A stretch of DNA of 64,000 bases from assembly GCA_964023275.1 (NCBI GenBank), contig OZ029916.1, forward strand, positions 47,507,249-47,571,248. Direction: 5' to 3'. Within the stretch, counting starts at the first letter, position 1; every line of letters starts with the position of its first letter. Positions 769 through 43,998 of the stretch are shown piece after piece. Under the pieces are notes generated by a model. The model did not search any database. It worked only from the letters and a program-made list of their open reading frames with translations, and was not told the origin of the DNA. The position numbers and the translations under genes were made by a program. The DNA comes from Norana najaformis (taxonomy: Eukaryota; Annelida; Clitellata; Crassiclitellata; Hormogastridae).

Positions 769-1771
769 ATGAGAGTTGCTGCTGCGCTGGTATTGCTCGT
801 CGACTTCCTTATGTTTCCTGAATACGGGGATACTCAAAAATCAAATATTGACATCGATGGGTACGGCAACATCATGCACACTCAACCATCGCTATATTAC
901 ATTTAAATCATTGATTACCGACAAGTATTTACAGTCACGTATCAAACTCTTCTTTCTATTACTTCTCAGGTATTCCATTCAACACTGAAGTCTCACCTTT
1001 TCAATATATCACACCCTGATCCATCGAATTCGCTGTCATTCCATTTCTCTCAGTTTAAACACAACCCACCATAACAGATCCTCTCTCCCTTCTCTTTCTT
1101 GTCTTCTGGCAACCGGAGTTGGTTCTTGATTTGGCATCTTTGGACAACCCCACTGATTTGACCCAACGCTAGCGAATAGGCTGGTGTCTTGCGTTCAGCT
1201 TTTACATAGCGCTATAGAAATTTCGCGTTTACGATTACAATTACGATTGCATGCATCCATAGAAACATAAAAACATTTCTTGGATAATTTGTGATTCAAT
1301 CGAACTTACATTACTGTAAAACTCAACTTGAGAACTTCTCAACCTTTGACTTCCAATATATCACAAGGTATATCAAAACAATATTTGAATTTAAACAGAT
1401 TTTTCACTGATCAGCATAGTTTCTTTTTAGTTAACAAAGCTGCCAACGACGAGACATGTGGCTATGCATTTTTATTGCTTTGTTAACAACAATCTAGGTT
1501 CGATAACAAATTATATAACTCCGACCTTGCAAGACATGTCAAAGACAATCTTTACAACACCGACCTTGGAAAATTGGCTTACAGCAATCCATACAACTCT
1601 GACCTGGAAAAGCACGAATTAGCAAAACCGCTCAGCCAAAAAAACGACCCCCGCCTTGAACTGATAACCCACTTCAATCGGAAACGCGCCCAGAGGAAAG
1701 TGTTTCGTTCCGACCTTGAAAAACAAGGTCCATGGCAAGGATATGGACACACTAACGAATTCGGGATGTAG
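769..1771 (+). CDS. Secreted repeat-peptide precursor, copy 1 (spliced, 121 aa)
   Basis: Coding exons 769-860 and 1498-1771 join in phase (2+1). The ATG lies directly after a splice acceptor (TTCCAG), so an upstream untranslated exon is expected. Residues 1-20 (MRVAAALVLLVDFLMFPEYG) form a hydrophobic signal peptide. Exon 2 encodes tandem units with a shared core: KLYNSDLARH, DNLYNTDLGK, NPYNSDLEK and, after an RKR site, VFRSDLEK. The Gly-Lys-Arg amidation sites of copies 3-5 are degraded here to GKL, EKH and ARH, so processing would differ or fail. The acceptor used (AATCTAG before 1498) lies upstream of the position used by copies 3-5, where the AG is lost. The C-terminus differs from copies 3-5 and ends in GYGHTNEFGM. 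No named family is recognised; this is a prohormone-like secreted protein or a decaying copy. Confidence 0.6.
975..1255 (+). repeat. LINE 3' end, GATTAC-tailed family A
   Basis: Degenerate C-terminal LINE coding sequence (FHSTLKS-like) is followed by the family tail (TGACTGAGCGCCTGTGAATA-like) and ends in GATTACAATTACGATT. The same 3' end recurs at 10128, 11490, 24590, 30585, 36410, 48040, 52490, 57795 and 59890 on the + strand. This copy sits in the intron between the coding exons of copy 1. Confidence 0.6.
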
Positions 1772-2059
1772 CACATATGGCTGGGTAAGATGTCTTCTTT
1801 ACGTAACAGTGGTGTGTTGTATTACTGAAACCTTAATTGACCACGCATAATAATTGAATGCTTTAAAGCTCACCGTTTGCCTTTATAAAATGCCGATATG
1901 TCGGGGTATCATCGCATAACGTTAGTATGTGTCTTCATTGGAATTATTACAATTCCATTACGCCGTTAAGATTCTCTCAACAATTTTGCGACATAACACC
2001 CTTTCTCAAATATACAACAACCATGAATGTTAATGTGCATGCGCGCTTGTATTTGTCTT

Positions 2060-2228
2060 CACATCCAGGTATTATGCATTTGTCCATATATATATATACG
2101 TATGTATGCATCTATGTATGTAGGTATCAAATTATGTATGTATGCATTTATGTAGTTAGGCATGCATGTATGTACGCACGTTTGTATGCATGTATGTATG
2201 CATATATGCATGCGTGCATGTATGTATG
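2060..2228. repeat. (TATG)n microsatellite
   Basis: Imperfect TATG/CATG tetranucleotide repeats. The complementary ATAC type starts again at 2455, so the two blocks form inverted arms in the last intron of copy 1. Confidence 0.9.
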
Positions 2229-2269
2229 AATTTATAACATAAAGCCTTAAATAAAGGAATTAAATTTCA

Positions 2270-2450
2270 TGTGCCTACATTGTGATGCGTCATACAATTG
2301 GACTTCAAGGCCTGCACTTCATGGCTCTGTTCAATGGATTATGATTTTGGAAAGCGAATTTGCTTGGAAGCGACGATCGTCTGAAGCGTTGGCATTATGA
2401 CAACGACGCCATGGAAGCTAATAGATTAGATTGAATTAGATTAGATCCCG
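2270..2450 (+). repeat. SINE/LINE-like 3' tail ending in GATTAGATT
   Basis: The segment GGCATTATGACAACG...GAAGCTAATAGATTAGATTG is shared with 15060-15190 and, more distantly, with 52150-52195, 53650-53720 (reverse) and 61795-61900 (reverse). It looks like the 3' end of a retroposon with a short tandem tail. Confidence 0.5.
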
Positions 2451-2454
2451 ATGA

Positions 2455-2690
2455 ATGCATACGCACATACTTATATATGCATATATGTCCACGCATAGAT
2501 ACAGAGACACATACATACATACAAACATACATACCAACATACATACATACATACATACACCCTTACATACATGCATACACTCATACATACATCCATATAT
2601 AAATATATGGATGTAGGTAAATGCATACATACATACATGCATTGCAAACACACATTCATGCATACATACATTTATACATAAATGCAAATA
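2455..2690. repeat. (CATA)n microsatellite
   Basis: Imperfect ACATACAT repeats, the reverse complement of the TATG block at 2060-2228. Long cysteine- or tyrosine-rich open frames across it are translation of the microsatellite, not genes. Confidence 0.9.
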
Positions 2691-2788
2691 TATAAACTTG
2701 CATTCATGCAGATATACATCGATTGCGTATACATTGCACATACAAGCATACCATGTTACGTTTTAATGTTACCTACGTAACATTGCAG

Positions 2789-3217: not shown

Positions 3218-3613
3218 TTGCATTGTTCTGTGCTGCCCTGTGCCAACAGACTACGCTTGTGTACGTCCGTCCTGCACCAGTCTCAAACGTCACACAGCCA
3301 TTCTCTGTTCGGTCTACCTCTGATCCTTCCGCCATCCATCATTCCAAAACACCACCTATAGGAAGGTGTCCAAAAAGATGTAGTTTTCTTTCCATTGCTT
3401 GCTACACTATGTTTCTTGTGCAATCCAGTCATATTCGCATCTCAGCGTTTGTGACCTTCTCTTGCCATCTGATGTGTTATATTCCATCTATATCATTTCT
3501 TCTGAAATGCCTCTTATCTATCTTGGTCTTGTCGTCGAAGTTTCATATGCATCAGCAACACACCGAATGTGCACTTTTAATTTTTATTTGGAAATTCTAC
3601 CCCATGAAGGGGA
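3218..3613 (-). repeat. LINE C-terminal fragment fused to U2 3' end (copy K1)
   Basis: Read on the minus strand this decayed segment matches the LINE tail seen better at 16493-16924, where RKLNLFGHVPRMDN is readable. That motif is typical of the C-terminus of non-LTR reverse transcriptases. It directly follows the U2-derived piece at 3614-3736. Confidence 0.55.
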
Positions 3614-3802
3614 GTGGCCCAACCCGTTGAGAAGCTGAAGCAAGCCCCTGCATCTTCCCCCAAGTCCAAAATTCAGTTTAATATCGATGTGCCCGGATAG
3701 GGGACTTATCAGATATTAAGCTGATAAGAACGATACTTTGTATATCTTTTTAAAAATGTACAAAAATTTACAAGTACTCTTATTATATTATGCGGATCAG
3801 GA
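3614..3802 (-). pseudogene. U2 snRNA 3'-half remnant plus LINE tail (copy K1)
   Basis: On the minus strand, 3736 to 3614 reads as U2 snRNA from GTATC(TG)TTCTTATCAG onward, through GATAAGTCCCCTATCCGGG and the Sm-site region. About 30 bases around the stem IV hairpin are missing. From 3737 to about 3802 lies the 3' end of the U2-targeting LINE described at 17075-18642. Too damaged to be functional. Confidence 0.7.
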
Positions 3803-3804
3803 TA

Positions 3805-6711: not shown

Positions 6712-7177
6712 CATGAGCCCATCGTCCGTTGGTGTCGATCGCATTATATTTCCATTGTTCTCTCTTCTGCCCTGTGCCAACAGACTCCGCTTGTGCACGT
6801 CCTCCCGCACCAGTCTCTGACATCATCCAGCCATTCTCTGTTCGGTCTTCCTCTGATCCCTTCGCCATCCGTCATTCCAAACTCTAGCTGTCTGACCATC
6901 CTGGTGTTATCCATTCTGGGGACGTGTCCAAAGAGATTTAGTTTCCTCCCGATGCACCTGAATCACGATGTTTCTTGTGCAACCCAGTCCTCTACGCACC
7001 TCACGTTTGTGACCTTCTGTTGCCATACGATGTGTGTTATTCCATCGATAGCATCTCATATGAATTGCCTGTAATCAATATTGGTTTTGTCGTGGAAGTT
7101 TCACTTGCATACAGCGGCACACTCAAAAAGGGGCATTTTTAATATCTACTTCGGATTTTCTCCCCCGTAAAGGGGAG
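6712..7177 (-). repeat. LINE C-terminal fragment fused to U2 3' end (copy K2)
   Basis: Same arrangement as 3218-3613 and 16493-16924. The minus strand carries a decayed RKLNLFG-type LINE C-terminus (AAACTAAATCTCTTTGGACA near 6925-6945) ending in the unit's 3' flank. Confidence 0.55.
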
Positions 7178-7327
7178 TGGGCCGATCCTTGAGGTACTGC
7201 AATACCGGACCAACCCGCGGAGAAGCCGGAGCAAGTCCCTTCATCTTCTCCAAGTCCAAAAATCAGTTTAATATGGATATCCCCCGATAGGGGACGTATC
7301 AGATATTTGGCTGATAAGAACAAATAC
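7178..7327 (-). pseudogene. U2 snRNA 3'-half remnant (copy K2)
   Basis: On the minus strand this reads from GTATTTGTTCTTATCAG through the branch-site-adjacent region and the Sm region to GGTATTGCAGTACCTC, the 3' stem IV hairpin of U2. The 5' 35 or so nucleotides are absent, replaced at 7328 by the tail of a LINE. Conserved U2 blocks remain readable, but several substitutions suggest a pseudogene. Confidence 0.8.
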
Positions 7328-7870
7328 TTTTTTATCTTTTAATAAATATAGAAAAATTTACAAATGTTCTTACCATATTATGCAGCTCAGGATTTACCGA
7401 TATCTGTTGTAAATATCCATGACTAATATTTTATTGGTCCCTTTTCGCTTTAGGCAGTATACCTTTACAAGATGCTATGTAAAATTGTCGTGAATGTGTC
7501 ACGGTATCTTTTCTGATATTATTTGTGTATATTGTAGCCCAGGTTTGCTTTAATTACAAAGTCATATTTATTTTGAGGTAGTCGCCTTCGATCACGTCGA
7601 GAGGCGGTGGGTTTCCGCGACACCAGAATTTCGTGAAGGGCTCTATATCGAGTCGTACAAGTCTGCTTGCATGCGAGTTTTTAATAAGTGCATAAAAAGT
7701 GGGAAATATCCTGGCTGTGCAGATTATTTTTGTGCCATTTTTTGCGTCCAGATGCCATTTCGAGCTCTCCACTCAAAACGAGAAGTGTTGTTGTATCAAT
7801 GGCGGCTAGATCCACGAGTTGTTGAAAGATAAAAAAAGTCTGGACACAGTTTAATTGTTTTTCCCGCAAG
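7328..7870 (-). mobile_element. 5'-truncated U2-targeting LINE (copy K2)
   Basis: The minus-strand coding remnant KWHLDAKN...RLDIEPFTKFWCRG...GDYLKINMTL matches the LINE C-terminus at 17134-17571. The 3' end abuts the U2 site TTCTTATC with a short A-rich tail (AAAAGATAAAAAA). The 5' end is lost at the minisatellite starting near 7870. Reading frame broken. Confidence 0.65.
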
Positions 7871-10382: not shown

Positions 10383-10792
10383 TGCCAGGTGAACCTAAAG
10401 TCTAGTGCTCTAATGTTTTAGCAAACAGCAGATAGAGTCGCCCAGAGTAAGTAATTCACGACGAAATCTGAAGTTGAACCGGTACATTCACATGGGCTCA
10501 TCGATTGCTTTAACGCATTATTCATTAAACTACAATTTAATCTTCTTTCTTTTCAGTGCATAACAATTCATAGTTTGTTTTGCATAACAGAATCAATGAC
10601 ACTATTCTTGCTCTTGTTTCAAAACAATGATTTTAAAAGCAGAAGTCGTTCTACGTTCATACAAGTTTATGAAAGCTAAACTGCCGGCGCGCACAAAAGA
10701 AACATCTATTTAAGACGATGAGGCAGATACTTAGTGAAGTCTTTAACGTCTATTTTTGCATAATAAATCCGCTCAGTCCGTACTTGTCATTG

Positions 10793-10910
10793 TATAAATG
10801 TCGTCCTTTGATAAAGAAAACGGGTCAGTATATTGCCAGAGACTATAGCTGAACACGTGTGATATATAACATCTTTGTTCTCGTACATTTTAGACGATAA
10901 TAGTAAAGTA
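10793..10910 (+). promoter_or_regulatory. TATA box and non-coding exon 1, peptide gene copy 2
   Basis: TATAAATG at 10793 is followed by the conserved GAGACTATAGCTGAACACGT block, with a donor GTAAGT at 10911-10916. Layout as in copies 1 and 5. The next acceptor is TTCCAG just before the ATG at 11279. Confidence 0.55.
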
Positions 10911-11278: not shown

Positions 11279-14200
11279 ATGAGAGTTACTGCTGCGCTAC
11301 TATTGTTCGTCGTCTTCTCTATGTTTCATGAATACGGGGATTCACTTCAATTCGATATAGACCGAATCGGGTAAGAAAAATCCTCCGACAACAGCATGCA
11401 CCCTCTCAGCTGTCGCTATATGACATTTAGATCATTGATTACCGACAAGTATTTGATAGTCATGCATCAGACTTCTCTTTCTATTACATCTAATGTATTT
11501 CATTCAACACTGAAATCTCACCTTTTCAGAAAATCCCACCCTTATCTATCGAATCCGCTGTCATTCCATTTCTCTCAGCTTAAAGACAACTTACCATAAC
11601 AGCTCCTCTCTCCCTTCTCTCTGGCCTTTTTTCAACCGGACTTAGTTCTTGACTTGACATCTTTGGGCAACCACGCTGACTTGACCCAACGCTAGCGAAT
11701 ACCTTTTGCATAGCGCTTTAGAAACTTCGCTTTTACGGTTACAATTGCGATTACATGCATGCATACAGACATAAAAAACATTGTTGGATAATTTGATTCA
11801 ATGGACCTTACATTATTGTAAAACTAAACTTGTGAATCTCTCAAGCATTGACTACCAATATAGGGGAAACATGTGTAATTTGCACCCCCAAAAAATATGT
11901 GCTTTTAAAAGGGTAAAGAATTCGCCGAGTGCCAAGAAAAATTGGCACAAACATATCCACACAGCCTAGAATAATATGTAACGAAGCAATAGTTGTACGT
12001 CTTATAGAAAATGTAAAAATGTAAGAAATGTGTTTTTAAAAAAGTGGTCCAATTTGCACGACTGTCGTGTAAATTGAGCCTTTATGGTTCGTTTACAACG
12101 TTTAACATAAGTAAGCTAAAAATGGTAGGATATTTTTCTTCAAGATCAATAATGCTTAATATATATCTTTTGAAGCACAAATATGGGCTTAGCTGTTGTT
12201 ATAACTTGTAACACTGTTAAACTCTCTTAAGAAATATCTCTTGACCTACTAGAAAGTGTCAACTTTTCGAAATGCCCACAGAAATGACTTAAAACCTTCA
12301 TATAAGTCTAAGCAGACTTAGCTAACTAAACTAAGTGCACTGGTAGCTAAACTGATGCAGAAAATAAACTTGGAAAGTCTTAACTTGTGAATTTTTGCTG
12401 TGTCTTCTTGAATGTCTTTAAATTATCACAAAATTCTAAACAAACTTAACTCTCATGGAAAGTCTCAAAAACTTTCAGCGCCATTAGCTTTAAATGCAAA
12501 TGTCACAATAATAATATTCAGAATTTGTCAAATCAGCACGATTCTCCGCCCCAATCATTCACAGCGTTTACATTGGATCCAGTTTTCATTGTTATCATGA
12601 CCACAGATAATACAATTGTATTTCTCCGATTAAACTCAAGGCAACCCTTGCCTCCCTTGTTTGTCCTTGGACGTGTGCATCTTCTCTGTAGTTTCGTTTT
12701 TGTTCTTTGACCTGGGGCTACAGCTTTTCCTTTCGCAATCAGGTGTCAATCTGATTGAGTTCTTTGTGCGTTCTTTGAAATGCACTTGTGGTTTTCCTCA
12801 TAATTCATTGCCTGTTTAAGTTGCCTTAGAGTTTTCTTTTATATTTTGGATTCTAAAAGAGCTCTCTTGTATGGTGACGCTGTCAGCACAGTTGCACATA
12901 AACTTGGTCTTTTCCTGGTTTTTGCCTTGTCATCATAAACGTTTTTGGGTAATGGGCTGATGTCACAAACACCTATTCCATTTCCAGCTACAAATTTTTC
13001 AAGAAGGTTACACATTTAGGCCTATATACTTTAGTTCTGTTGAACCCGGCGGCTCTTTCAAGAAAGGTTGGTTCTGCCGTACGCAGAGTTATACTTGGGC
13101 GGCGCTTTAGAATACCCATCAAAAATTCTTCCCCAGCCATTCTCTTTGCCGAAATTAAATCGAGTTGGAATCTTATTGACTTCTGCAATTTGGAATGCTA
13201 GTTTCCTTAATAAAGTAGTGTTCATCCCATAAAATCGCTCTTCTATTGAAAGAATATGCTGCTCAAGTTCTTCTTTAACATCCACTGGTAAATCGAATGG
13301 CCTCCCAAAAACATTTTTGAGATCTTACTGCCGACTTATTTTTTCCATCAAGCCTCTGTTTTAGCGTTCATTTTGGCACTCTAAACTCTCTTGCAACTTT
13401 ATTTAACCCATATCCTTTATATCTTAGAGTATCAATAGCAATTGCCATAGAACTTTCTGTCCACTTTCCATACTTTCCTTTTGCTAATCGATCTGAACTC
13501 TACTGGCATTTTACTTGGAAACGTGTATCCTATATACTAACCAAAACAATCATGTTTTAGTATGGACATTTATAAACCATGATTTTATGACAGCAACATA
13601 AGACAAGTGACCATTTCTGTGGAACTTACCACTTATTATATGTGGTAAAATTTACACAATAGTTTGTGTAAAATGGACCGCAGTCCATTTTAAACACCAG
13701 CATGTGGTTCATTTTACACGAATGCCAATAGTATGCAAATATTTTAAATGGGCGTATGTGACTTGACACTTGCAAGGGCCAACGCATATGAATAACAGGA
13801 CTTTAAAAAGCACTTTCGCAGGGCCATCTCCATTTAGCTGCCTAATACTGAAAAGTACGCATATCTGACATGAAAGGGACACTGCTTCATTACATCATTG
13901 AGCACAATTTTACTTAAAGCGACGACATACTAAAACTAAAACTCTTGTAGTCTTGTCGTTTTCCGTGCAAATAAATAATGCAACTGCGCATGCGTTCGCG
14001 GCTTCAGCTGATTCTCTTCTCTGCTGATTTCGCTATAATACGAAAGTTCAATTTACACGGTGGTCCAAATGACATAAGTTTCCCCTATTACAAGTTATAT
14101 TAAAACGTTTGAATTTAAACAGAATCTTTATTGATCAGCATAGTTTCTATTCAGTCAGCAAAGCTGCTAAACGACGAGACAAGTGATTATGCAATTTTAT

Positions 14201-14535
14201 TGCTTTGTTAACAACACTCTAGGTTCGAAAGCAAATTATATAACTCCAACCTTGAAAGACCTGTCAAAGAGAATCTTTACCACCCTGACCTTGGACAACG
14301 TACCAAAGAGAATCTTTATGACTCCAACCTTGGAAAACACCCTCCCACGAATCCATACAACTCGGAAGTGGAAAACCGCACCAAAATAAAACCTTTCAAA
14401 GACAGAAACGACCCCAGCCTTAAACTGGTAAACCACGTGAACGGGAAACGCAGCCAGAGGAAAGTGTTTAGCCCGGACCTTGCAAAACACACTCTATGGC
14501 ACGGTCACGGATACCGTAATGGTGTCGGGATTTAG
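11279..14535 (+). CDS. Secreted repeat-peptide precursor, copy 2 (spliced, 134 aa)
   Basis: Coding exons 11279-11370 and 14223-14535 join in phase. The signal peptide is MRVTAALLLFVVFSMFHEYG. Exon 2 encodes KLYNSNLERP, ENLYHPDLGQR, ENLYDSNLGKH, NPYNSEVENR, then a linker with NGKR and VFSPDLAKH, and ends GYRNGVGI. It carries one more ENLY repeat than the other copies. As in copy 1, most Gly-Lys-Arg sites are eroded (GQR, GKH), with one GKR left. The intron between the exons contains an A-family LINE end and a 2.2-kb pogo-like transposon. The frame is open throughout, so the copy may still make a secreted protein, but multipeptide processing looks impaired compared with copies 3-5. Confidence 0.6.
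11490..11765 (+). repeat. LINE 3' end, family A
   Basis: Readable LINE C-terminal remnant FHSTLKSHLFRKSH is followed by the family tail and GATTACATGCATG. Homologous to the copy at 975-1255 in intron 2 of copy 1. Confidence 0.6.
11863..14085 (-). mobile_element. pogo/Tigger-like DNA transposon, degenerate
   Basis: Terminal inverted repeats begin GGGGAAAC at 11863 and end GTTTCCCC at 14085, with matching inner bases (ATTTG, ACC). The flanks are TA on both sides (11861-11862 and 14086-14087). The empty site is visible in copy 1 near 1357. The minus strand encodes a broken pogo-type transposase: an HTH segment (KWTESSMAIAIDTLRYKG, near 13400-13500, with an internal stop), a CENP-B-like region (EELEQHILSIEERFYGMN, 13200-13285), then a frameshift into ILKRRPSITLRTAE (near 13100). 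A C-terminal zinc-finger remnant (CIICGHDNNENWIQC) lies near 12540-12620. The central DDE catalytic core is missing. Dead copy. Confidence 0.8.
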
Positions 14536-16492: not shown

Positions 16493-16924
16493 ATGGTGTC
16501 ATCGTCCGTTGGTGTCGATCGCATTTTTCCTTCTACCCTGTGCCAACAGACTAAGCTTGTGTAAGTCCGTCCCGCACCAGTCTCAAAATTTCATCCAGCC
16601 ATTCTCTGTTCGGTCTACCTCTTATCCCTTCGCCATCCATCATTCCAAACACCATCTGTCTGACCATCCTGATGTTATCCATTCTGGGGACGTGTCCAAA
16701 GAGATTTAGTTTCCTTTCGATTACTTGCTGTAGGTGTTTCTTGTGCAACCCAGTCGTCTACTCAACTCAGCGTTTGTGAACTTCTTTTGCCATCTGATGT
16801 GATATTCCATCGATAGCATGTCATCTGAATTGCCTGTAATCTATCTTAGTTTTTTCCATACAGAAACACACTTAAAGCGCATTTTTTTTCATTTTTTACT
16901 TAAGATTTCTCCCCGTGAAGGGAG
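16493..16924 (-). repeat. LINE C-terminal fragment fused to U2 3' end (copy K3)
   Basis: The best-preserved copy of this tail. The minus strand reads QQVIERKLNLFGHVPRMDN, then IRGRPNREWLDEILRLV, the classic end of a non-LTR reverse transcriptase ORF. Its 5' edge abuts the U2 3' end, so U2 and LINE form a chimera repeated at four places in the window. Confidence 0.7.
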
Positions 16925-17074
16925 TGGGCCGATCACGGAGGTACTGCAATACCTGGTCAATCCGTGGAGAAACCGGAGCTAGCCTCTGCATCTTCTCCCA
17001 AGTCCGAAATCAGTTGAATTTCGATGCCCCCGAATAGGGGACGTATCAGACATTAAGCTGATAAGAACAGATAC
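16925..17074 (-). pseudogene. U2 snRNA, 3' portion (copy K3)
   Basis: Minus strand, from GTATCTGTTCTTATCAG through ATACGTCCCCTATTCGGGG to GGTATTGCAGTACCTCC. This is U2 from about nucleotide 36 to near its 3' end. Together with 18643-18693 it forms one U2 gene copy split by a LINE. The 15-bp site GATAAGAACAGATAC (17060-17074) is the target duplication. Confidence 0.85.
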
Positions 17075-18642: not shown

Positions 18643-18693
18643 GATAAGAACAGACACTACACTTTGATCTTAGCCAAAAGGCCGAGAAGCGAT
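18643..18693 (-). pseudogene. U2 snRNA, 5' end (nucleotides 1 to ~50)
   Basis: Minus strand, starting at 18693: ATCGCTTCTCGGCCTTTTGG, CTAAGATC, then GTTCTTATC. This is the universally conserved 5' end of U2, including the stem I region, up to the LINE insertion point. One extra A (ATCAAAGTG) differs from the usual ATCAAGTG. It is the only U2 5' end in the window. Confidence 0.9.
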
Positions 18694-18932: not shown

Positions 18933-19418
18933 GCTCTTTTTATTTCGCGTTTTAAGAGACTTATAAAGGCTTTGTAAGTTTCTTAAAAGGCGCTAAATTG
19001 GATATCTAACCGTTTAAGGTATAGTACTCTAATTTTTTAACAAAAGGCAGGTAGCGGTGCCCGCAGTCAGCCACACCCGATAGTCTGCAGTTGAACCAGT
19101 ACATTTCCATGGACAGATACATCGATTGCCGTAATTGATTATTCATAACGCGACAGTTTAATCGTCTTTCTTTGTTTATAGACCACAACAATTTATGTTT
19201 TATTTTGCACAACAAATTCATGAATACTATTCTTGCTCTTGATTACAGACTAATGACTTTTAGAAACAGAAGTCATTCTACGTTCTTACATGAAAGCTGA
19301 ACTGCACTCCAGAACAACAGAAGCAGATAAAATTTAATGAGACGTTAACGCAAATATTCAGTGAAGTGTTTAATGTCTATTTTGCATAATAAGTCCGCTT
19401 AGTTTATTAGTGGTCTTG

Positions 19419-19530
19419 TATAATAGTCGTCCTGTGATAAGGAAAGCCAATCAGTGTATATAGTCTCAGACGAAAGCTGAACACGTCTGATATACAACAT
19501 CTTTGTTCTTGTGCATTTTCGACGAAAATA
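19419..19530 (+). promoter_or_regulatory. TATA-like box and former non-coding exon 1, copy 3
   Basis: TATAATAG at 19419-19426 and the conserved CAGACGAAAGCTGAACACGT block are present. The GTAAGT donor of copies 1, 2 and 5 has become ATTAAGT near 19530. Transcription or splicing of copy 3 may differ from its sisters. Confidence 0.4.
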
Positions 19531-19890
19531 TTAAGTTTATTGTTACAATTTCTCGCATTTTACTTTGATCCACGGTGGGTATGATTTCTGAACACATGCA
19601 TGCATCTATTCCCTCTGTACACCAATGCTCAAAGGAAGTCTTGAGTCGGCACTAGCTTAATCACAAAGGTTGATGGTGAACTGGAATGCAAGAGTCTCAG
19701 TATCAAGTTCATTTTCCCTCTAGTTCTTTCACTCGAATGCAAAAATATTTTCTTTTAAGAAACGCCCAACGTAAATCTCGGTACAAAGTTCATATTACCA
19801 ACTAATAATTTCCATTCGAATGCTAAAGTATTTTCCCTTTAACCATCGTCCATTTATTCATTAATTAATTAATTCATTCATTCAGAGCAT

Positions 19891-20264
19891 TTACATACCG
19901 CCCCATAAAGTTGTATACCCAGAGGGGCTCTCAGCCCACCCACGGCGAAAAAGAATAGTTTTCAATTGCTGGTGAATGGCATATCGAACATCCCTCGCCA
20001 GAGGGAGACGTAGATTAAGAGGGAGGCCGTTACAGGTAGAGGGTCCAGCTATTGAAAAGGCGCGATGTTGCATTGTTGCACTGTGTGCGAAAGGAACAAC
20101 AGTTTCACCTCGGGCCGCGGAACGAACCCTAACCCTAACCCTCTCCTGGACCTTTACCTGAAACCGCATCCCCAACTGGCATCGCCAGACCCACATCGAG
20201 ATTTTAAATTCGATGCGCTGCGAAACCGGCAACCAGCGGAGAACATCACGCATATAATGCGACC
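19891..20264 (-). repeat. LINE C-terminal fragment (WLPVSQRIEFK type)
   Basis: The minus strand reads LRWLPVSQRIEFKISMWVW, then AFSIAGPSTCNGLPLNLRL and QQLKTILFRR. These are the conserved C-terminal blocks of CR1/L2/Jockey-type LINE proteins. Inserted upstream of peptide gene copy 3. The three AACCCT units at 20125-20142 fall inside it. Confidence 0.75.
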
Positions 20265-20546: not shown

Positions 20547-20759
20547 TTGGGCGTTTTGGTGTAGTAGTATGGTCTGTGCTTCGTAACCGGAGTGTCGCGG
20601 GTTCGAATTTGCCTCAAGCCACTGCGTAGCAACCTTGGACAAGTTGGTCACACACAATTGTCTGTGAGGAAGGCAACGGGGAACTCACTCATCCTCGGGT
20701 GGCATAAAAGCCAATGGACTTGCCTTCGGGCAGAGAACTCTTCACATCATCACCATCAT
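20547..20759 (+). repeat. tRNA-derived SINE with target duplication
   Basis: Box A-like TGGTGTAGTAGTATGG (20557-20572) and box B GGGTTCGAATTT (20599-20610). The element is bounded by direct ACGTAA repeats (20541-20546 and 20760-20765). Sister units have uninterrupted sequence here, so this 213-bp insertion is specific to unit 3. It lies in the intron just upstream of the signal-peptide exon of copy 3. Confidence 0.8.
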
Positions 20760-20834: not shown

Positions 20835-21934
20835 ATGAGAGTCGCTGCTGCGCTGCTGTTATTCGTCGTTTTCTCCATGTTTTCCGAAGACGTTGATACA
20901 CTTCAAACAGATCTAGACCTAGTCGGGTAAGGCAATTCCACCCACAACATCAAGCACACTCAACTATCGCTATATTACAGTTTAGTAAATAAATAAGTAA
21001 GTAAATATATTCTTTATTAACCAATAGCTAATCGCACATCGGTTTACAAGCATAAAGGAACACAAGAAAAACTTAATATACATACAACCCCTTATTAATA
21101 AAACATTTACGCGTTAAATTATCAGCAGAAGGAATAATACGATCATAGGTGTGGGGCCGTAGGGAATAACTGAGGGTTTTAACTGGCGGAGTAGCTGATG
21201 TAAGACATGGTTGGGGTTAAGTCATTGTTTATCGACCAGTATTGATAGTCATGCATACACACACTGTTGGATAATAATTTGTGATTCAATTGACCTTACA
21301 TTACTTTGAAGACGTACCGCGACGTGCAATGAACTTGACAACCACTCAACCATTGAATTTCTTTCCAAGATCTGTCTACAGAATGTTTAAATTTAAACAG
21401 AAGCAAGTTCTTAAAGGATCATCATATCGTAAACGTCGTCATAGACTAGAGAATTCTAAGGCACCCAACGAAAGCTGAGTCGTGGGAACCAGCTTATTCA
21501 CGGGCGATCAGTCAAAATAAAATTCATCGGCAAGAAGGATTCGGTTCCGGGTCAAAATCTTAGAATTAGACAGGCAGGCAGGTAGGCAGCTGCGGTGGGT
21601 AGTGTATGGAAGTATCTCTTTTTTTTAGCAAATTAAGCTGCAGGCGACGAGATAAATGATTGTGCAATTATATTGCTATGTTAACAACTATATAGGGTCT
21701 TTAACTAACATTTCAAATAGACCCGACCCTGGAAAACGTGCCAAAGAGAATCTTTATGACTTCCATCTTGGGAAACGCGCCCCCACGATTCCGTACAGCT
21801 CCGACTTCGGAAAACGCGAGAGCCTTCCGATCAAGAAGTTCAGAGCAGACCTCGGTCGAAGGTACGTGGATGGATATTCTAAGCAAATCCGGGATATAAC
21901 TTACCTGCTGTGGTTATATTACCACATTAGGTAA
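20835..21934 (+). CDS. Secreted repeat-peptide precursor, copy 3 (spliced, 101 aa)
   Basis: Coding exons 20835-20926 and 21721-21934 join in phase across a GT-AG intron. The signal peptide is MRVAAALLLFVVFSMFSEDV. Exon 2 has the cleanest prohormone pattern in the array: GPDP-GKR, AKENLYDFHL-GKR, APTIPYSSDF-GKR, ESLPIKKFRADL-GRR. A conserved 23-residue C-terminal peptide follows, rich in Tyr and Trp (YVDGYSKQIRD...). Gly followed by Lys-Arg or Arg-Arg is the standard signal for dibasic cleavage and C-terminal amidation, so three amidated peptides are predicted. Here the conserved Cys of copies 4-5 is Ser. A donor (AG/GTAACA, 21930/21931) overlaps the stop; splicing to 23267 would add one Lys and end at TGA. 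The peptide family is not recognised. Confidence 0.7.
21428..21605 (-). repeat. LINE 3' end, family A (reverse), with (GGCA)n
   Basis: Reverse-orientation family A tail (CACCCAACGAAAGCTGAGTC) ends in a short AGGCAGGCAGG run. Equivalent insertions lie at 32078-32270 and 43425-43650, all in the coding intron, so it predates the duplication of units 3-5. Confidence 0.65.
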
Positions 21935-29682: not shown

Positions 29683-29798
29683 TACTGTTTTGTATTGTAT
29701 CTAAATGGATAAAGTAATAATAGTTTTATAAAAACAGTAACTTAAACTGTCTCGCACAAAGTCTGTAATATTGTAAATGCTCAACCGTTCCGACTCGC

Positions 29799-30835: not shown

Positions 30836-31234
30836 TGCCAGGTGAACCTAAAGCCTAGTACTCTAATGTTTCAACAAACAGCAGATAGAGTCACCCAGAG
30901 TAAGTAATTCACGACGAAATCTGAAGTTGAACCGGTACATTCACATGGGCTCATCGACTGCTTTTACGGATTATTCATTAAACAACAAATTAATCGTCTT
31001 ACTTTTCAGTGCATAACAATTCATGGTTTATTTTGCATGACAGATTCATTAATACCATTCTTGCTCTTGTTTCAAAACAATCCCTTTTAGAAGCAGAAGT
31101 CGTTCTACGCTCATATATGAAAAATAAACTGCCGGAGAGCACAAAAGAAACACCTAATTAAGACGATAAAGCAGATAATCAGTATTTATCGTCTATTTTC
31201 AATAATAAACCCGCTTAGTCTGCACTTGTTCTTG

Positions 31235-31345
31235 TATAAAAAGCCGTCTTTTGATAAAGAAAACGAGTCAGCGTATTGTTAGAGACGAAAGCTGAACGCG
31301 TCTGATATACAAAATCTTCGTTCTTGTGGAATTTCGACGAACATA
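31235..31345 (+). promoter_or_regulatory. TATA box and former non-coding exon 1, copy 4
   Basis: TATAAAAAG at 31235-31243 is the best TATA match of the array, with the conserved GAGACGAAAGCTGAACGCGT block about 45 bases downstream. The donor GTAAGT seen in copies 1, 2 and 5 is changed to GAAAGT here, so another donor would be needed. Confidence 0.5.
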
Positions 31346-31712: not shown

Positions 31713-33321
31713 ATGAGAGTTGCTGCTGCGCTGCTGTTGCTCGTCGTCTTCTCTGTGTTTTTTGAAGACGTGGATACACTTCAATCAGATCTAGAACGAG
31801 TCGGGTAAGGCAAATACACCGACAACATCAAGTACACTCTCAACTATTGCGATATTACAGTTGGATCACTGATTATCGACCAGCATTGATAGTCATGCTT
31901 ATTCACACGTATAACATTGGTTGGATAACAATTTGTTATTCGATCAAAGTTACGTTGCTGTAAAGACATACTACGACGAGCATTGAACTTGACAACCACT
32001 CAACCATTGAATTTCTCTTTCAAGATATGTCTACAGAATGTTTCAATTTAAACAGATGCGCCCTCTTAATGGATCACCATATCGTAATCGTCGTCAAAGA
32101 ATAGAGATTTCTATGCCGCCCAACGAAAGCTGTGTCGCGAGAACTAGCTTTTTCGCCAGCGATCAGTCAAAATAAAATTCTTAGGCAAGAAGGAGTCCAT
32201 TCTGGGTCAAGGTCCTAGAGTCTGGCAGGCAGGCAGGCAGGTAGGCAGGCAGGTAGGTAGGCAGGCAGCTACGGTGGTTAGTGTTTGGAAGGGTATGCGG
32301 ACTGATCATCAAAGGACTATTCATCAAAGGACTATTCATCAAGAGTATTGTTCATCAGGAGGACGGTTCATCAAATGGCTGTTCATCAAAGTACTGTTCA
32401 TCAAAACTAAGTTGAAACCCTTCATTTAATGAATGAAATTTGTTTGCTTTTGGCTTCAATTGGGTTGCTTTGTTTTATGTTTGATGAATTAAGTTTTAAT
32501 TCTCTTGCATCCCCTCCACCACCATCATTATCCAATATATACCCCAGAGATTTTAAGTGGAAACTTAAGCATAATCGTTACATGTCAATTTTAGTTTAGA
32601 ACAGGGAGACTGCATTTCTTTAAGTTAGTTATTACGTCTAACGTATTACATTTTAATAACTTTTAGTTTAAAACATAAAAACATATAAACATTTAAGACA
32701 AACAATGTTTACTACAGTACAAATTATACTCTTTTGGCTCTTAAAGTACAACATAGTATAATATATATTTGTATACCGACATTACATAAAAAATTATTAG
32801 ATCAAGTGTATGTTTTCTCGTTACATTTAATTAAAATTATTTAAAATATTTGATAAAACAATAATTTCAAATAATAGTAAATAAATATGTTTTGATGAAC
32901 AATCCTCTTGATGAACAGCCATTTGATGAATAGACCATTGAGGAACAGCCCTTTGATGAATCGTCCTTTGATGAACAGTCCTAGAATCGTTTGGAAGAGT
33001 GTCCTTTTAGTAAATTAAGCTACAAGCGACGAGATAAATGATTGTGTAATTATATTGCTATGCTAACAATAATGGTCTTTAATTAAAATATTAAATAGAT
33101 CCGACCCTGGAAGACGAACCAAAGAGAATCTTTATGACTCCGATCTTGGGAAAAGCGCCCCTAGAAAACCGTACAACTCCGAATTCGGAAAACGCGCCAC
33201 GAACGGCCGGTATAGGGCTAAGGTGATCATAGGAGGCAAGGGTCGAAGGTACGTGGATGGATATTGTAAGCAATTCCGGGATTTAACATACATGCTCTGG
33301 TTACATTACCACATTAGGTAA
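31713..33321 (+). CDS. Secreted repeat-peptide precursor, copy 4 (spliced, 104 aa)
   Basis: Coding exons 31713-31804 and 33099-33321. The signal peptide is MRVAAALLLLVVFSVFFEDV. Exon 2: GSDP-GRR, TKENLYDSDL-GKS, APRKPYNSEF-GKR, then a basic spacer ending VIIG-GKGRR. The conserved C-terminal peptide YVDGYCKQFRDLTYMLWLHY ends HIR. One dibasic site has changed (GKR to GKS). A single Cys sits in the C-terminal peptide, leaving it free to form an intermolecular disulphide. The stop overlaps a donor (AG/GTAAAG at 33317/33318); splicing to 33913 would give ...HIRK. The intron carries a reversed A-family LINE end and the foldback element at 32292-32988. Confidence 0.7.
32078..32270 (-). repeat. LINE 3' end, family A (reverse), with (GGCA)n
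   Basis: Counterpart of 21428-21605 and 43425-43650, with a (GGCA) run of about 50 bp at 32223-32270. Confidence 0.65.
32292..32988. mobile_element. Foldback (long-TIR) non-autonomous DNA element
   Basis: Both ends, about 110-120 bp, are inverted repeats built of GGACTGTTCATCAAA-type subrepeats. The central 470 bp is AT-rich and non-coding. The flanks are the identical 9-mer GTTTGGAAG (32283-32291 and 32989-32997), and sister copies 3 and 5 have a single GT(T/A)TGGAA here with no insert. A 9-bp duplication is typical of Mutator-like elements. Confidence 0.8.
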
Positions 33322-36790: not shown

Positions 36791-37504
36791 GTATATATTA
36801 CATTGGACATATATTACATGCGTCTACATAAATTTGAATACATAGATAGGTTAGGGATTAGTTATGCGTCGCTGTCATTTCAATGCAAGTATCATTCAAC
36901 AAATTAACTGCAATAGTAAATTGATTATGTAGATGCATAAAATTTATTATGCGATGGCACGTTGCAACTCTACTTGGAGACATCACCAAGGGTAGAATCT
37001 ACATAAATATGTAGTCTATGTGTACAGACGGGAAATCAAGTAGTTTTGATCAGATGACTCTGAAAAATATAAACTTTGGTCGCTTTGTTTTATGTTGGAT
37101 TATAAAATAAAATAAGTTCTACCTTTTCGAAGTTTCGTTTGAGTTGAAAAGTGCAGGTATCGAATTAAGATGGACTGAACTGGCATGAACTGGTAGACGT
37201 AAAGACGTAGATAACAGATGTAGGGCCACCGTAAGGTTGCAAAAAGGAACTGCTGGGTATAATGGTATTAATGGTATGGAAGGGCCAACAGTTTCGGCAT
37301 TCTTGGTGTTGCGGCATGGCGCTGTGGATACGACGCTGGCAAAACATTGAAGTTAAGTAGCACGAGGCTGGTTAGCACTTGTATGGTTGCTAAGTCCAAA
37401 TGAAATTTTACTGGAAACAGTGTAATGTTTAAGTTCTTTGGTCTGTCTGGATTGTTTTCTCCATTAAAGTGTTCAATCAGACGTTTTGTTGGTGGTGCAA
37501 GGTT

Positions 37505-38831
37505 ATGGCGATCCTGTTTACTGTCGTGGCTCGGGGAACAACCATTCTGGCGCAATACGCCAGCTGCATGGGAAATTTCCAGAAGGTGGTGGAGCAAGTG
37601 CTGGTCAAAATTCCCCCAGAGAGCGCAAAGTACACCTACTCGCACTCAAGGTAGGCTAAACGTGTTCTTGTTTTGTATATCTTGTTTTCAACCGTCCTCG
37701 AACCGAGGATTGGCTGCACCATGGACAATTGTGTGCCATCTGCTTCTGTCCCTTGTCTACAGTAATAATGGTTCAAATGATAATTCAGTCCACGAGTTTA
37801 TGTTATTGATCCATGTCCTCTTGTGTCTTCCCCGAGCTTGGGATTCATTTGGGTTGCTCTTATATATTCTAATATAATCTAAAGACGATTGTTCTCACAG
37901 CACATGAGAAAAATGACCCCACAAAAAGTGCAAAGTTCATCTGTTAGTACTGAAAGTGTTTTCTTGTTCTATTTTTCTGCATTCTTTGTTAGTTCGATGA
38001 TGCTGGGGAAGCTAGAAAGAGTCCAAAAATCGACCTTTTGGCTAAGTCTTACCGTAACACGGTCTTGTGTTTTGAAATAGGTATTTGTGAAGTTACTCTT
38101 GAGTGTCACCTGGACTAGAGTATCACTTCTGTTTATCTGCCATTCTGAACGTCTGCCTTTGTGGCTGTGTATCTGCCTTTATTTGTTTGCTGTGTTATGT
38201 ACTGTATTTGTTTGTGTGTTTGTCCACGGCTTCTGTTCCTCGCTCACCCGATGGACATATGACGTGTTAACAAACGCATCACTTACTTACTTACTTACTC
38301 ACTTACTCGCTTGCTTACTGACTATGTGGAATGGATTGGGCTTTGTTTAAAGCAAAAGGGCTCAACAACATGAAGAAGTTTAGAGAAGTTAATGCGATTA
38401 TTGGCTCCTCTCTTAAAAATCTCAATTATTACTTGACATGTATTCCAGCAATGGTCCACACCGGAGATGATCTAATTACTGATGAGCCTAAGGACTATGA
38501 CTTTGTGAATAGCTAGTGACAAACAGCTGCTTGAAAAATCGAGTCTTAAGTTTAGCCTTTAATGGTAATAACAATCGAGAACTAGCAACCGGATTCCAAG
38601 GTCTGAGCGTTTTCATGTTTCATATTTCTGCTTGTGTTGCTAGTTGTCTGATGTTGGTGAAGATCTTGAAGAAGTGTGATATAAATTTTCTGAATGTGTC
38701 TGTTTGATGCATACATTTATATTTACGTACTGAAGGAAATGTTTCGGACATTATCTTATTGTTTGTAGTTACCTGTTTCACTACATTTCCGAGAGTGCCA
38801 TGGAGTCATCTATTTATGCAATGCCGACGAT
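37505..38831 (+). pseudogene. VAMP7: VAMP7 fragment: duplicated exons 1 and 2
   Basis: Exon 1 (37505-37650) is intact and almost identical in protein to the real gene's exon 1, with one Glu-to-Lys change (GNFQKVVEQ). Exon 2 (38769-38831) carries a 5-bp insertion (GAGAGTGCCATGGAGTC) that shifts the frame after YLFHYISES, and its donor GTGAGT is mutated to ATGAGT. No further VAMP7 exon follows before the homology ends near 39265. The fragment was copied with the 5' part of VAMP7 when units 4 and 5 were duplicated. It cannot make VAMP7, though a transcript from a duplicated promoter could exist. Confidence 0.9.
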
Positions 38832-39267: not shown

Positions 39268-39450
39268 TATGACATCAGCGATTGTGAACTTGTGTTGCCA
39301 TCTGATGTGTTACATTCCATCTATAGCATCTCATCTGAAATGCCTGTAATCTATCTTTGTCTTGTCGTTGAAGTTTCATTTGCATGCGGCAACACACCGA
39401 ATGTGCGTTTTTAATTTTTTTACTAGAATTTCTCCAACCGTGAATGGGAG
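39268..39450 (-). repeat. LINE C-terminal fragment fused to U2 3' end (copy K4)
   Basis: The minus strand reads RQDKDRLQAFQMRCYRWN, upstream of where RKLNLFG would follow. The unit 4-unit 5 homology breaks exactly at its edge near 39265. Confidence 0.6.
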
Positions 39451-39600
39451 TGGGCCGGTCACGGAGGTACTGCAATACCGGGCCAACCCGCGGAGAAACC
39501 GGAGCTAGCCTCTGCATCTTCTCCCAAGTCCGAAATCAGTTGAATATCGATGCCCCCGGATAGGGGACGTATCAGACATTAAGGTGATAAGAACAGATAC
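39451..39600 (-). pseudogene. U2 snRNA 3'-half remnant (copy K4)
   Basis: Minus strand, GTATCTGTTCTTATCACC through ATACGTCCCCTATCCGGGG to GGTATTGCAGTACCTCC. Nearly identical to K3. No U2 5' half is found upstream. Confidence 0.8.
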
Positions 39601-40376
39601 TTTTTTATCTTTTAATAATTGTACAAAAATTTGCAAATATTCTTAGCATATTACGCAGCTCATGAGTTACCCTTATCGGATCTAAGTGTCCATATCTAAT
39701 GGTTTATTTTCCTTTTGTCTATAGGCAGAATATCTTAATCTGAAGCCATGTTAGATTGTCGTGTATGATATTCTGTTTATAGCGCTTTATATACATAGTC
39801 ATATTTATTTTAAGGTAGTCGCCTTCCACCTCGGCAAGAAGAGGTGTAGTCTCGCGACACCAGGTCTTCGTAAATGACCCTCTATCAAGTCGTACATAGT
39901 CCGCTTGTATACGATTTTTCAATACATGGATAAAAAGTGGAAAAATATCTTGATCGGCCAGTCCTCTGTATTCGTATTTCACGCGGTTTCTTTGCATCCA
40001 AATGGCGAGCTTCAGCTCTCCACTCAAAACGAAAGTTTGACTGGGAATCAATGAAAGTTCTTCGACTCACGAGTTCTGTCTGATCGCTCCATATGAAGTT
40101 AAATACAGCTTTGTTGATGACTTTTATTGTGTCCTCACGAAATGTCGTACAGTTGCCCATGTACCAAAGTTTGGAGCAGATTGCTGCACTGAACAGCGCT
40201 GCTTTGGCCGTCAGCGTGAAGAACGTCGTCCTCGGTACATTTTTACAGCTTTTTAAACTTTTTCAAGGATCACTTTGTTGTTCTGTTGTTCCGAGAGTTC
40301 TCCGAAGAAAACGCTATAAATTTTAACGCAGGTTGTCCACTGAAAGCAAATGGGGAAGTCCCTTCTGTTTATCCAT
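39601..40376 (-). mobile_element. U2-targeting LINE fragment (copy K4)
   Basis: Same LINE as 17075-18642, with an internal deletion of about 650 bp near 40030 and a further 5' truncation. Minus-strand blocks FREDTIKVINKAVFNFIWS and ADYVRLDRGSFTKTWCRE are readable but in different frames. Confidence 0.7.
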
Positions 40377-41420: not shown

Positions 41421-41759
41421 GACTGACATCAGTGAAAGGGCCCACGGACAGTGAAAGGCAGCTCATTCCAGAGCCTCGGTCCAGCAACCGAGAAAACCCT
41501 GGAATCGAGTATCGTTCTTACACGAGCACAACATAATGAAAGTTTCAGAAGAATGAGTCAGAAAAGTGAGCGAAGAGAAGAGATATGTTGGCTGACCAAA
41601 ATGCATTGTCTTTTAAACTGTGAGACAAGTCGTGAAGTAGGTCCCATGTTGAGTGGGAAGCTGCTGAACTGGAAAGCACTGTGTCGGCTCTTTGTGCAGT
41701 GGCTTATATTTCAGTGTAAGGGTAATGTACTGGATTCTGAAGGTTTCCTTTTAGTCACC

Positions 41760-41875
41760 GTAAATAATCGTAATCGTAATCTCGAGGTTTCTACAGCGCC
41801 CAACGGAAGCCAAGTCGCAGGAAGCAGCTTATTCACAAGCGCTCAGTCAGAACGAAATCGATTTGCACGATTTTT
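41760..41875 (-). repeat. LINE 3' end, family A (reverse)
   Basis: (GTAATC)n at 41762-41782, followed by TTTCTACAGCGCCCAACGGA. The reverse orientation of the + strand family A ends. Confidence 0.7.
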
Positions 41876-42593
41876 TGTTTGAGTACTAACAACACCTGTG
41901 TTTGGATTATCTCGGTAATTACCGACTTGAATTTGGCTCTGGTAATTACCCCAATATCACGCGGCGCTTCCTCCAACGCGAAATCATTACCCACGAGAAT
42001 GTGTATACCAGAGGGCAGTTTATTGATTAAACAACAATGGATGGTCACACTGCCAAATCTACTCCCAACACGAATTTCAACCAAAGGTTATTAAAAGGGT
42101 GATTAATTCTAGCTGTTGTGTTTCGCCCAGAATAAGTAATTCCCGACGAAATCCGAAGTTGAACGGGTACATTCAATTGGGCACATCGATTGCTTTAACG
42201 ATTGATTCATAATGCAACAATCTAATCGTCTTTCTTTTCAGTGCATAGCAATTCATGGTTGGTTTTCTATTACAAATTCATAAATACTATTGTTTAAAAA
42301 ATGCCTACGTTCATACATAAAAGCTCAACTGCCGGCAAACATAAACACAACAAAACATGTAAATATGACGATAACGCATAATTATATTTAATGAAAGTCT
42401 TTATGGTCCATTTTGCATAACAATCCGCTTAGTCCGTACTTGTTTCTGAATTAAAAAATTGTCATTTGATAAAGAATATGAGATAAACTGCTCTGGAACA
42501 CAGGAAAAACATCCAATTAAGACGAAAACGCAGATATTCAGTATTTATCGTCTATTTCGCATAATAGATCCGCTTTGTTGATATTTGCTCTTG

Positions 42594-42693
42594 TATAAAG
42601 TCCCTATTTGAAAACAGTCAGTATATTGTCTGAGACGAAAGCTGAACACGTCTGATATACAAAATCTTTATTCGTGCATCTTAGACGAAATTA
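42594..42693 (+). promoter_or_regulatory. TATA box and non-coding exon 1, peptide gene copy 5
   Basis: TATAAAG at 42594-42600, then the conserved GAGACGAAAGCTGAACACGT block, ending at donor GTAAGT (42694-42699). This is the most complete promoter and first-exon arrangement among copies 3-5. Confidence 0.55.
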
Positions 42694-43057
42694 GTAAGTT
42701 TATTATCACTTTTTTGCATTTTTCCTTAATCTCTGTAGATATGATTTCTGAACACGTGTCCATTTATTTCCCCAGTGCGTAAATGCACAAAAGTATGTTT
42801 TCCATAAAGTTTCTTTGACAACCCATTCCGCATACCAGTGCTTAAAGTGTGTCTTTAGTCGGCGGTAGTTTAATCAGCAAGCTTCTTATCAACTCGAATG
42901 CAAGAGCACTTTTCTTTACTCAAAATGCAACGTAACTCTTGCTACCAAGTTCGTATTCCCGCTAACTAATTGCCACTCGGATACGTAAGTACGTTGATTT
43001 AACGTCCAACGTATTTTAATGTTTCAGGTTCATATTTCGCTGTTTTTACTGTTCCAG

Positions 43058-43590
43058 ATGAGAGTTGCTGCTGCGCTGGTATTGCTCGTCGTCTTCTCCA
43101 TGCTTTTTGAAGACGGGGATACACTTCAATCAGATCTAGAACGAATCGGGTAAGGCAAATCCACCAACAACATCAATCACACTCAACTATTGCGATATTA
43201 CAGTTAGATCATTGTTTATTGACCAGCATTGATAGGCATGCATGCACACATATATAATATTTAATAGATAATAATTTGTGATTGAGTTGAACTTACATTA
43301 CTCTAAAGACGTACAACGACGAGCATTGAACTTGACAACGGCTCAACCGTTGAATTTCTCTTCCAAGATCTGTCTACAGAATGTTTAAATGTAAACAGAA
43401 GCACCTTCTTAAACGGATCACCATATCGTAATCGTCATCATAGACTAGAGATTTCTTCGGCGCCCAACGAAAGCTGAGTCGCGGGAATTAGCCTATTCAC
43501 CGGCGATCAGTCAAAATAAAATTCTTAGGCAAGAAGGATTAGGTTCCGGGTAAAATCCTAGAGATAGGCAGGCAGGCAGGCAGGCAGGCA

Positions 43591-43623
<33 letters not shown>

Positions 43624-43998
43624 ACAGGCAGGCAGGCAGGCAGGCAGCTACGGTGGTTAGTGTTTGGAATAGTTTCGTTTTAGTAAATTAAAGTGCAAGC
43701 TACGTGATAAATGATTGTGCAATTATATTGCTATGCTAACAACAATATATGGTCTTTAATTAAAATATTAAATAGATCGAACCATGGAAAACGTGCCAAA
43801 GAGAATCTTTATGACTCCGATCTTGGGAAAAGCGCCCCTAGAAAACCGTTCAACTCCGACTTCGGGAAACGCGCCACGAACGACCAGAATAGGCGTCAGG
43901 TGAAAACACGAGACTTGGGTCGAAGGTATGTGGAAGGATATTGTAAGCAATTCCGGAATTTAACATTCATGCTCTGGTTATATTACCACATTACATAA
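43058..43998 (+). CDS. Secreted repeat-peptide precursor, copy 5 (spliced, 104 aa)
   Basis: Coding exons 43058-43149 and 43776-43998. The signal peptide is MRVAAALVLLVVFSMLFEDG. Exon 2: GSNH-GKR, AKENLYDSDL-GKS, APRKPFNSDF-GKR, a spacer ending KTRDL-GRR, and the C-terminal peptide YVEGYCKQFRNLTFMLWLYY ending HIT. Gly-Lys-Arg and Gly-Arg-Arg sites predict amidated peptides such as APRKPFNSDF-amide. The donor overlapping the stop in copies 3-4 is changed (ATTACATAAAG), so this copy must end at the TAA here unless another donor is used. With an intact TATA box, exon-1 donor and coding frame, it is the best candidate for an expressed gene of the array. Confidence 0.7.
43425..43650 (-). repeat. 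LINE 3' end, family A (reverse), with expanded (GGCA)n
   Basis: Counterpart of 21428 and 32078. The GGCA array at 43566-43648 is the longest of the three. Confidence 0.7.

Follow-up and report, generated by a model that had tools for sequence, protein, structure and literature searches.

Putative secreted repeat-peptide precursor genes with conserved reading frames and fast-changing repeat exons in a tandem array of the annelid Norana najaformis

Introduction

Invertebrate precursors of amidated neuropeptides carry a signal peptide followed by tandem short units whose ends are marked by a glycine and a dibasic site. The subject of the present analysis is a tandem gene family resembling this kind, five units of which (u1-u5) lie in a 64,000-nucleotide stretch of the annelid Norana najaformis, hereafter the window (bases 47507249-47571248 of contig OZ029916.1, here C4). 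In its mode of change the family resembles two further systems. As far as the excerpted account in PMC2453101 describes it, the nlp-29 cluster of Caenorhabditis elegans is a small set of duplicated neuropeptide-like precursors showing adaptive change in recent duplicates. Conotoxin genes, in the excerpts of PMC3862624, place the signal and mature parts on separate exons and combine conserved introns with a fast mature exon and trinucleotide insertions and deletions (indels).

The five units and the family to which they belong are almost certainly genes, and they probably encode precursors that yield small secreted peptides, either neuropeptides or peptide pheromones in type, and are present as tandem duplicates that are diversifying. 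Like amidated neuropeptide precursors, they join a predicted signal peptide to tandem short units, the ends of which are Gly-dibasic in u3 (4/4) and mostly so in u4 and u5; unlike them, they have mostly lost the dibasic sites in u1 and u2, and their exon changes fast. With the nlp-29 cluster, to the extent that it is described in the excerpts, they share the clustering of duplicated precursors, a likeness of description and not of sequence comparison, whereas antimicrobial peptides of the nlp-29 type have a mature part rich in glycine and tyrosine and are induced by infection, and the units here are NLYDSDLG-like and the aligned letters do not look glycine-rich. With conotoxin genes, as excerpted, they share separate signal and mature exons, conserved introns, a fast mature exon and frame-size indels, but they have repeated units with amidation sites and neither a propeptide exon nor a cysteine framework. 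Membership among the conotoxins is ruled out because this framework is absent, all five window proteins having 0-1 Cys after residue 22.

Gene structure and family membership

All five units follow a common plan, and its coding part was confirmed as initially annotated. By pattern search, the ATGs at 769, 11279, 20835, 31713 and 43058 each stand immediately 3' of TTCCAG, and by pattern search and translation the signal exon (exon 2) is 92 base pairs (bp) long and ends in phase 2 throughout. The spliced frames are open over 121, 134, 101, 104 and 104 amino acids (aa) in u1 to u5. The repeat exon (exon 3) starts at 1498, 14223, 21721, 33099 and 43776, its acceptors having been chosen, at homologous positions within each subfamily, from 3-6 AG sites per unit giving more than 70 aa. 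The initial annotation had also ascribed a complete architecture to every unit. This holds for the TATA-like elements (5/5) but not for the donor of the untranslated exon 1, and the AATAAA placed in the last exon fits unevenly, the first such motif after the stop lying at 2250, 15479, 22244, 34084 and 44777, at unequal distances that reach 944 bp in u2. The features of the units, in window coordinates, are:

288..297, plus strand: u1 TATA-like element TTGTATTAAA; exon-1 donor GTAAGT at 402
769..860, plus strand: u1 exon 2, start codon and predicted signal peptide; donor GG|GTACGG
1498..1771, plus strand: u1 exon 3 coding part, repeats and C-terminus; stop TAG, 121 aa in total
1613..1690, plus strand: u1 fast-diverging middle segment, codons 70-95
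10790..10798, plus strand: u2 TATA-like element; exon-1 donor GTAAGT at 10911
11279..11370, plus strand: u2 exon 2, start codon and predicted signal peptide
14223..14535, plus strand: u2 exon 3 coding part; 134 aa in total, one 39-bp repeat more than u1
14377..14454, plus strand: u2 fast-diverging middle segment, codons 83-108
19416..19425, plus strand: u3 TATA-like element TTGTATAATA; insertions between element and ATG, exon-1 donor lost
~19643-20506: u3 further insertion, between promoter and ATG
20549..20757, plus strand: u3 insertion resembling a short interspersed nuclear element (SINE), with ACGTAA target duplication; boundaries set by eye from the sequence
20835..20926, plus strand: u3 exon 2
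21721..21934, plus strand: u3 exon 3 coding part; 101 aa in total, four Gly-[KR]-[KR] sites
31232..31241, plus strand: u4 TATA box TTGTATAAAA; exon-1 donor lost (GAAAGT)
31713..31804, plus strand: u4 exon 2
33099..33321, plus strand: u4 exon 3 coding part; 104 aa in total
33196..33246, plus strand: u4 hypervariable segment, codons 64-80
42591..42599, plus strand: u5 TATA box; exon-1 donor GTAAGT at 42694
43058..43149, plus strand: u5 exon 2
43776..43998, plus strand: u5 exon 3 coding part; 104 aa in total
43873..43923, plus strand: u5 hypervariable segment, codons 64-80

The family extends beyond the five copies first described. Searches of the 608-megabase genome (17 contigs), in which the best candidates alone were scored, gave 11 matches to the u2 repeat exon at an expectation value (E) of at most 1, eight on C4 and three on a second contig (C8), and nine to the u5 repeat exon, every one of them among the loci of the u2 search and full-length in u3, u4 and u5 only. 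On C4, an array of eight genes extends across ~73 kilobases (kb), with five in the window and three (v1-v3) upstream of it; the C8 loci (c1, c2 and c3) are dispersed and lie outside this array. Complete spliced frames were found for v1 (134 aa), v2 (101 aa) and v3 (101 aa), the last two having identical third exons, and for c1 (113 aa, C-terminal WYG, exon 2 of 95 bp). The third exons of c2 and c3 are still open, but c2 has no exon-3 acceptor AG and no signal exon was recognised in the 10-kb locus of c3; frames are therefore complete in 9/11 loci genome-wide. A tblastn search with the five proteins revealed no sixth copy in the window, the one other match outside the units having an E of 0.46. 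Beyond the family's array, tblastn with a cutoff of E<=0.05 gave no further copies, either over 40 kb to the left of the stretch that holds v1 or over 30 kb to the right of the window (partly N). The units are embedded in segmental duplications, the aligned pieces of which are 66-92% identical and interrupted by insertions.

Splice signals are largely shared among the nine complete genes. All have an upstream TATA-like element, and in seven of them the exon-1 donor is intact; this donor, A|GTAAGT, lies ~103-121 bp past the element and is intact in u1, u2 and u5. The acceptor ahead of the ATG reads TTCCAG in eight genes and TTCTAG in v1. The exon-2 donor has GT in 9/9 genes, as GTAAG in u2-u5 and as the weaker GTACGG in the others, and the coding intron keeps GT and AG at its ends in 9/9. 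In u3-u5 the exon-3 acceptor sits within sequence that aligns to the first repeat of u1 and u2; the splice site has therefore moved, with phase and frame kept. Another donor, 72 bp ahead of the ATG and perfect in u1-u5, is absent from v2 and v3 and for this reason was no longer regarded as the main donor of exon 1, but it may serve u3 and u4.

Conservation of reading frames

Frame conservation is the strongest evidence that the units are genes. Neutral evolution was simulated from an open ancestor along a tree scaled roughly to flank divergence, under six settings each with and without indels; branch lengths, a kappa of 2 and the indel rate were chosen by the analysts, and a frame was counted as kept when it was open over at least 90% of its length. 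All five window frames stayed open in 0/12,000 runs with indels and in 16/12,000 runs without them. It is because of this result, and because 9/11 frames are complete, that the units are almost certainly genes. Furthermore, the coding-exon gaps between close window copies measure 39 bp (u1-u2) and 9 bp (u3 versus u4 and u5), whereas 2/37 gaps in the flanks of these non-independent pairs are multiples of 3. In the nucleotide alignments of exon 3 for v1-c1, u2-c1 and v1-v2, gaps of 26, 27 and 50 bases occur besides those of 39 and 9, where the C-termini fail to align.

The initial annotation had contrasted selected coding exons with heavily rearranged surroundings. As regards selection, the proposal stands for the reading frame; for the amino-acid sequence a dN/dS (ratio of nonsynonymous to synonymous substitution rates) below 1 is not clearly seen. 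The contrast itself likewise survives for the frame, while the exon sequence of the array copies is as divergent as the adjacent non-coding DNA or more so.

Predicted peptides

The five window proteins each have a hydropathy peak of 2.7-3.1 within residues 3-17 and values of at most 0.81 further on, which by hydropathy alone points to a signal peptide. Repeat units of 13 residues follow, with ends of the form [DNHE][LFV][GEA][KRNQ] at 13-residue spacing. The pattern G[KR][KR] occurs four times in u3 (at 4/4 unit ends), three times each in u4 and u5, once in u2 and never in u1; among 20,000 shuffles, these counts were reached by 0 for u3, 77 for u4, 6 for u5 and 3,804 for u2. The proposal of tandem secreted repeat-peptide precursors is thus upheld in its open frames, frame-keeping indels, hydrophobic N-terminus and 13-residue repeats, and in u3-u5 also in its amidation and cleavage sites. 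Cleavage of u3 in the manner of a precursor would release AKENLYDFHL-amide, APTIPYSSDF-amide and ESLPIKKFRADL-amide. Processing at the unit ends of u1 and u2 is uncertain because mostly single basic residues remain there.

Sequence divergence and selection

Exon 3 was compared with its flanks in seven pairs of C4 copies, the identical pair v2-v3 being set aside and the v1 exon ending one base short of the stop. In 5/7 pairs exon 3 has changed faster at p<0.05: u3-u5 (p=0.014), v1-u1 (p=0.018), v1-u2 (p=9e-4), v1-v2 (p=5e-4) and, after realignment, u1-u2 (67/270 exon sites versus 58/401 flank sites, p=8e-4). The excess in u3-u4 falls short of significance (p=0.057). Within u4-u5, 13/51 sites of codons 64-80 differ, as opposed to 46/390 in the flanks (p=0.014), and 12.5 of the 13 differences are nonsynonymous. 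For the two C4-C8 pairs, v1-c1 and u2-c1, the 3' flank is hardly alignable and more divergent than the exon; when only the intron serves as reference, exon 3 has changed faster in v1-c1 (p=0.011), and the difference in u2-c1 is not significant (p=0.12). Gene conversion of introns may in part add to the contrast between exon and flanks, since v1 and v2 differ at 3/99 intron sites (3%) but at 52/214 sites of exon 3 (24%). The statement that exons change faster than flanks is therefore kept within limits, as it depends on the pair and weakens without CpG sites.

Pairwise dN/dS in subfamily A (15 pairs, six genes) ranges from 0.96 to 1.83, with the value for u1-u2 varying with the alignment (1.07, 1.19 and 1.14). 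Seven codon-model tests were made, with a separate tree search per model and the C-terminal tails of subfamily A excluded. For exon 3 of subfamily A as far as the NRKR site, the ratio omega was 1.95 (p=0.031 against 1); in this subfamily it was 1.44 for the signal plus that part of exon 3 (p=0.118) and 0.92 for the signal alone (p=0.82). Subfamily B gave 0.79 (p=0.40), or 0.65 without the fast segment (p=0.19), and all nine genes together gave 0.86 both for the signal (p=0.60) and for the signal plus repeats (p=0.44). The case for positive selection on the repeat exon is moderate, because one test in seven passes 0.05. Purifying selection on the amino-acid sequence was considered and is not supported: 294/2000 neutral simulations for the signal and 1586/2000 for the repeats lay at or below the observed value, and the codon tests were not significant. 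The dN/dS below 1 that the initial annotation had proposed as a check was accordingly not clearly obtained, the ratio being about 1 or higher in subfamily A and non-significantly below 1 in subfamily B.

Comparison with sequence collections and literature

No Pfam-A family matched any of the five window proteins at E up to 1, NCBIfam gave a single chance match (E 0.089) in 1/5 members, and the PDB sequences gave none. A query with the five-member alignment found nothing at E<=1 among 1149 candidates from a set of 5.8 billion proteins; this set may hold sequence from near the source, because a 569-aa open frame of the window has a 99% match there. Pattern searches of viral and prokaryote contigs returned 68 and 125 stretches, respectively, with 0 confirmed. 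Among titles and abstracts there was no relevant report for the unit strings (NLYDSDL, LYDSDLG, PYNSDFG and others), and the titles listed by topic include no paper on such a family.

Proposed function and alternative explanations

If the genes encode secreted peptide precursors, as we consider probable, a TATA promoter and short untranslated exon would be spliced to the exon with start codon and signal peptide and then to the exon of 13-residue units. The units would be transcribed and spliced, the precursor would enter the secretory pathway, and cleavage at basic sites with C-terminal amidation would yield short peptides ending in ...SD-Leu-NH2 or ...SD-Phe-NH2, which after release would act extracellularly on receptors. 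The array would have grown by tandem duplication and exchange between copies, and diversification would have involved rapid change midway along the repeat exon, the gain and loss of a whole 39-bp unit and, in u3-u5, an acceptor placed about one unit downstream. A more specific proposal, possible but on the whole doubtful, is that these are lineage-restricted amidated signal peptides under diversifying selection, which would work through amino-acid change in a middle segment, the gain and loss of units and an acceptor shift of about one repeat. They would then serve as a recognition signal of species or individual, either as a reproductive pheromone or shaped by conflict, and not as a conserved internal neuropeptide.

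Several observations weigh against the broader reading as diversifying precursors of secreted peptides. Most unit ends in u1 and u2 have been lost or keep a single basic residue, unlike those of a classic precursor, and the C-terminal tail of u3-u5 is hydrophobic; a further splice at an AAG|GTACGT present in the sequence could replace this tail. Neither u3 nor u4 retains the exon-1 donor. The C-termini align poorly with c1 (gaps of 26-27 bases), so that the evidence of frame-keeping comes from the window copies. The exon excess of u1-u2 weakens when CpG sites are left out (47/226 versus 55/371, p=0.073) and is absent from the whole exon of u4-u5 (p=0.70), where the nonsynonymous excess of the fast segment is by itself not firm (probability of at most one synonymous change 0.11). 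Among the C8 copies the pattern is reversed, with exon 3 slower than the flanks in c1-c2 (8/247 versus 24/300, p=0.027), c1-c3 (9/247 versus 23/294, p=0.045) and c2-c3 (7/247 versus 17/294, p=0.14). Finally, six of the seven codon-model tests do not fall below 0.05.

It is unlikely that the products are defence or venom-like effectors instead of internal signals, in a clustered family driven by other organisms as in the nlp-29 case. The tandem cluster, the dN/dS near or above 1 in subfamily A and the fast middle segment would suit such effectors, and the described parallels, as excerpted, point the same way, the nlp-29 cluster being likewise clustered with adaptive change in recent duplicates (PMC2453101) and conotoxin genes pairing conserved introns with a fast mature exon (PMC3862624). 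Yet the proteins have no cysteine framework, the 10-residue peptides predicted from u3 hold acidic residues and are not strongly cationic, and the perfect G-K/R-R sites of u3 match ordinary neuropeptide processing. Quite unlikely, too, is a secreted repetitive structural or matrix protein that remains uncut, its repeats forming a scaffold and its basic residues being incidental. Charged repeats under low sequence constraint would agree with this, as would the lack of dibasic sites at most unit ends of u1 and u2, in which the translations of v1-v3 look similar; Gly precedes the basic pair at unit ends of u3-u5 far more often than in shuffles, however, and the lengths of 101-134 aa are short.

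Very unlikely, in our view, is a decaying array of recently non-functional copies with frames open by chance and a dN/dS of about 1 reflecting relaxed constraint. Several pairs do show such ratios, u3 and u4 have lost their exon-1 donors, u3 carries insertions, and c2 and c3 lack an exon-3 acceptor AG and a recognised signal exon, respectively; but 9/11 frames are open, neutral runs with indels never kept the five window frames open together, and GT and AG of the coding intron are kept in all nine complete genes.

Small peptide precursors spread over short exons are often overlooked by gene annotation, and the present family could be recognised by frame conservation between tandem copies despite its unconserved sequence. 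Should the peptides be produced, the array would offer a natural experiment, one signal peptide having gone through many rounds of copying and alteration with even its splice site moved, and it would become testable whether amidated signalling peptides diversify under selection as toxins and immune peptides do.

Neighbouring genes and other features of the window

About 12 kb left of the array on C4 lies an insulin-family open reading frame (ORF; L023:8328-8804) with VCECC in its A chain, a motif typical of molluscs in insulin-like A chains. It is adjoined by an ORF for a rhodopsin-type receptor (L023:2910-4103), and a myosin-tail ORF lies to the right of the array.

Between the units are copies of the U2 small nuclear RNA (snRNA), all on the minus strand. 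One of them (16919-18693) is split by a non-long-terminal-repeat retrotransposon, with U2 positions 1 to ~50 at 18693 to ~18643, positions ~34 to the end at ~17075 to 16919, and a near-repeat of ~16 bp. The inserted element has ORFs at 17134-18381 and a weak reverse-transcriptase zinc-binding match in 17412-17762, and by analogy with the elements described in the excerpts of PMC4640811 it would fit a U2-targeting type such as Keno or Utopia. The stretches holding the three other copies (3609-3767, 7172-7358 and 39445-39632) resemble each other and 16518-17509.

Of 7993 scored candidates, 1966 are relatives of the 569-aa open frame (27991-29700, minus strand) at E<=0.001, with an identity of 99% for the best. 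Pfam gave no match to this frame at E up to 0.1; it is probably part of a widespread mobile element. Two block copies (37268-37877 and 49419-50028), ~92% identical, carry overlapping long frames on both strands (125 aa on the minus and 157 aa on the plus strand), and the three of their four frames that were searched had no Pfam match. Tandem arrays are present at 56961-57336 (42-bp unit, about nine copies) and 50270-50425 (36-bp unit, 98% matches). Within intron 2 of u4, a 15-bp unit (GGACTGTTCATCAAA) and its complement form inverted arrays, at 32299-32405 and 32891-32982, that bound a region of ~0.5 kb, which looks like a mobile insertion.

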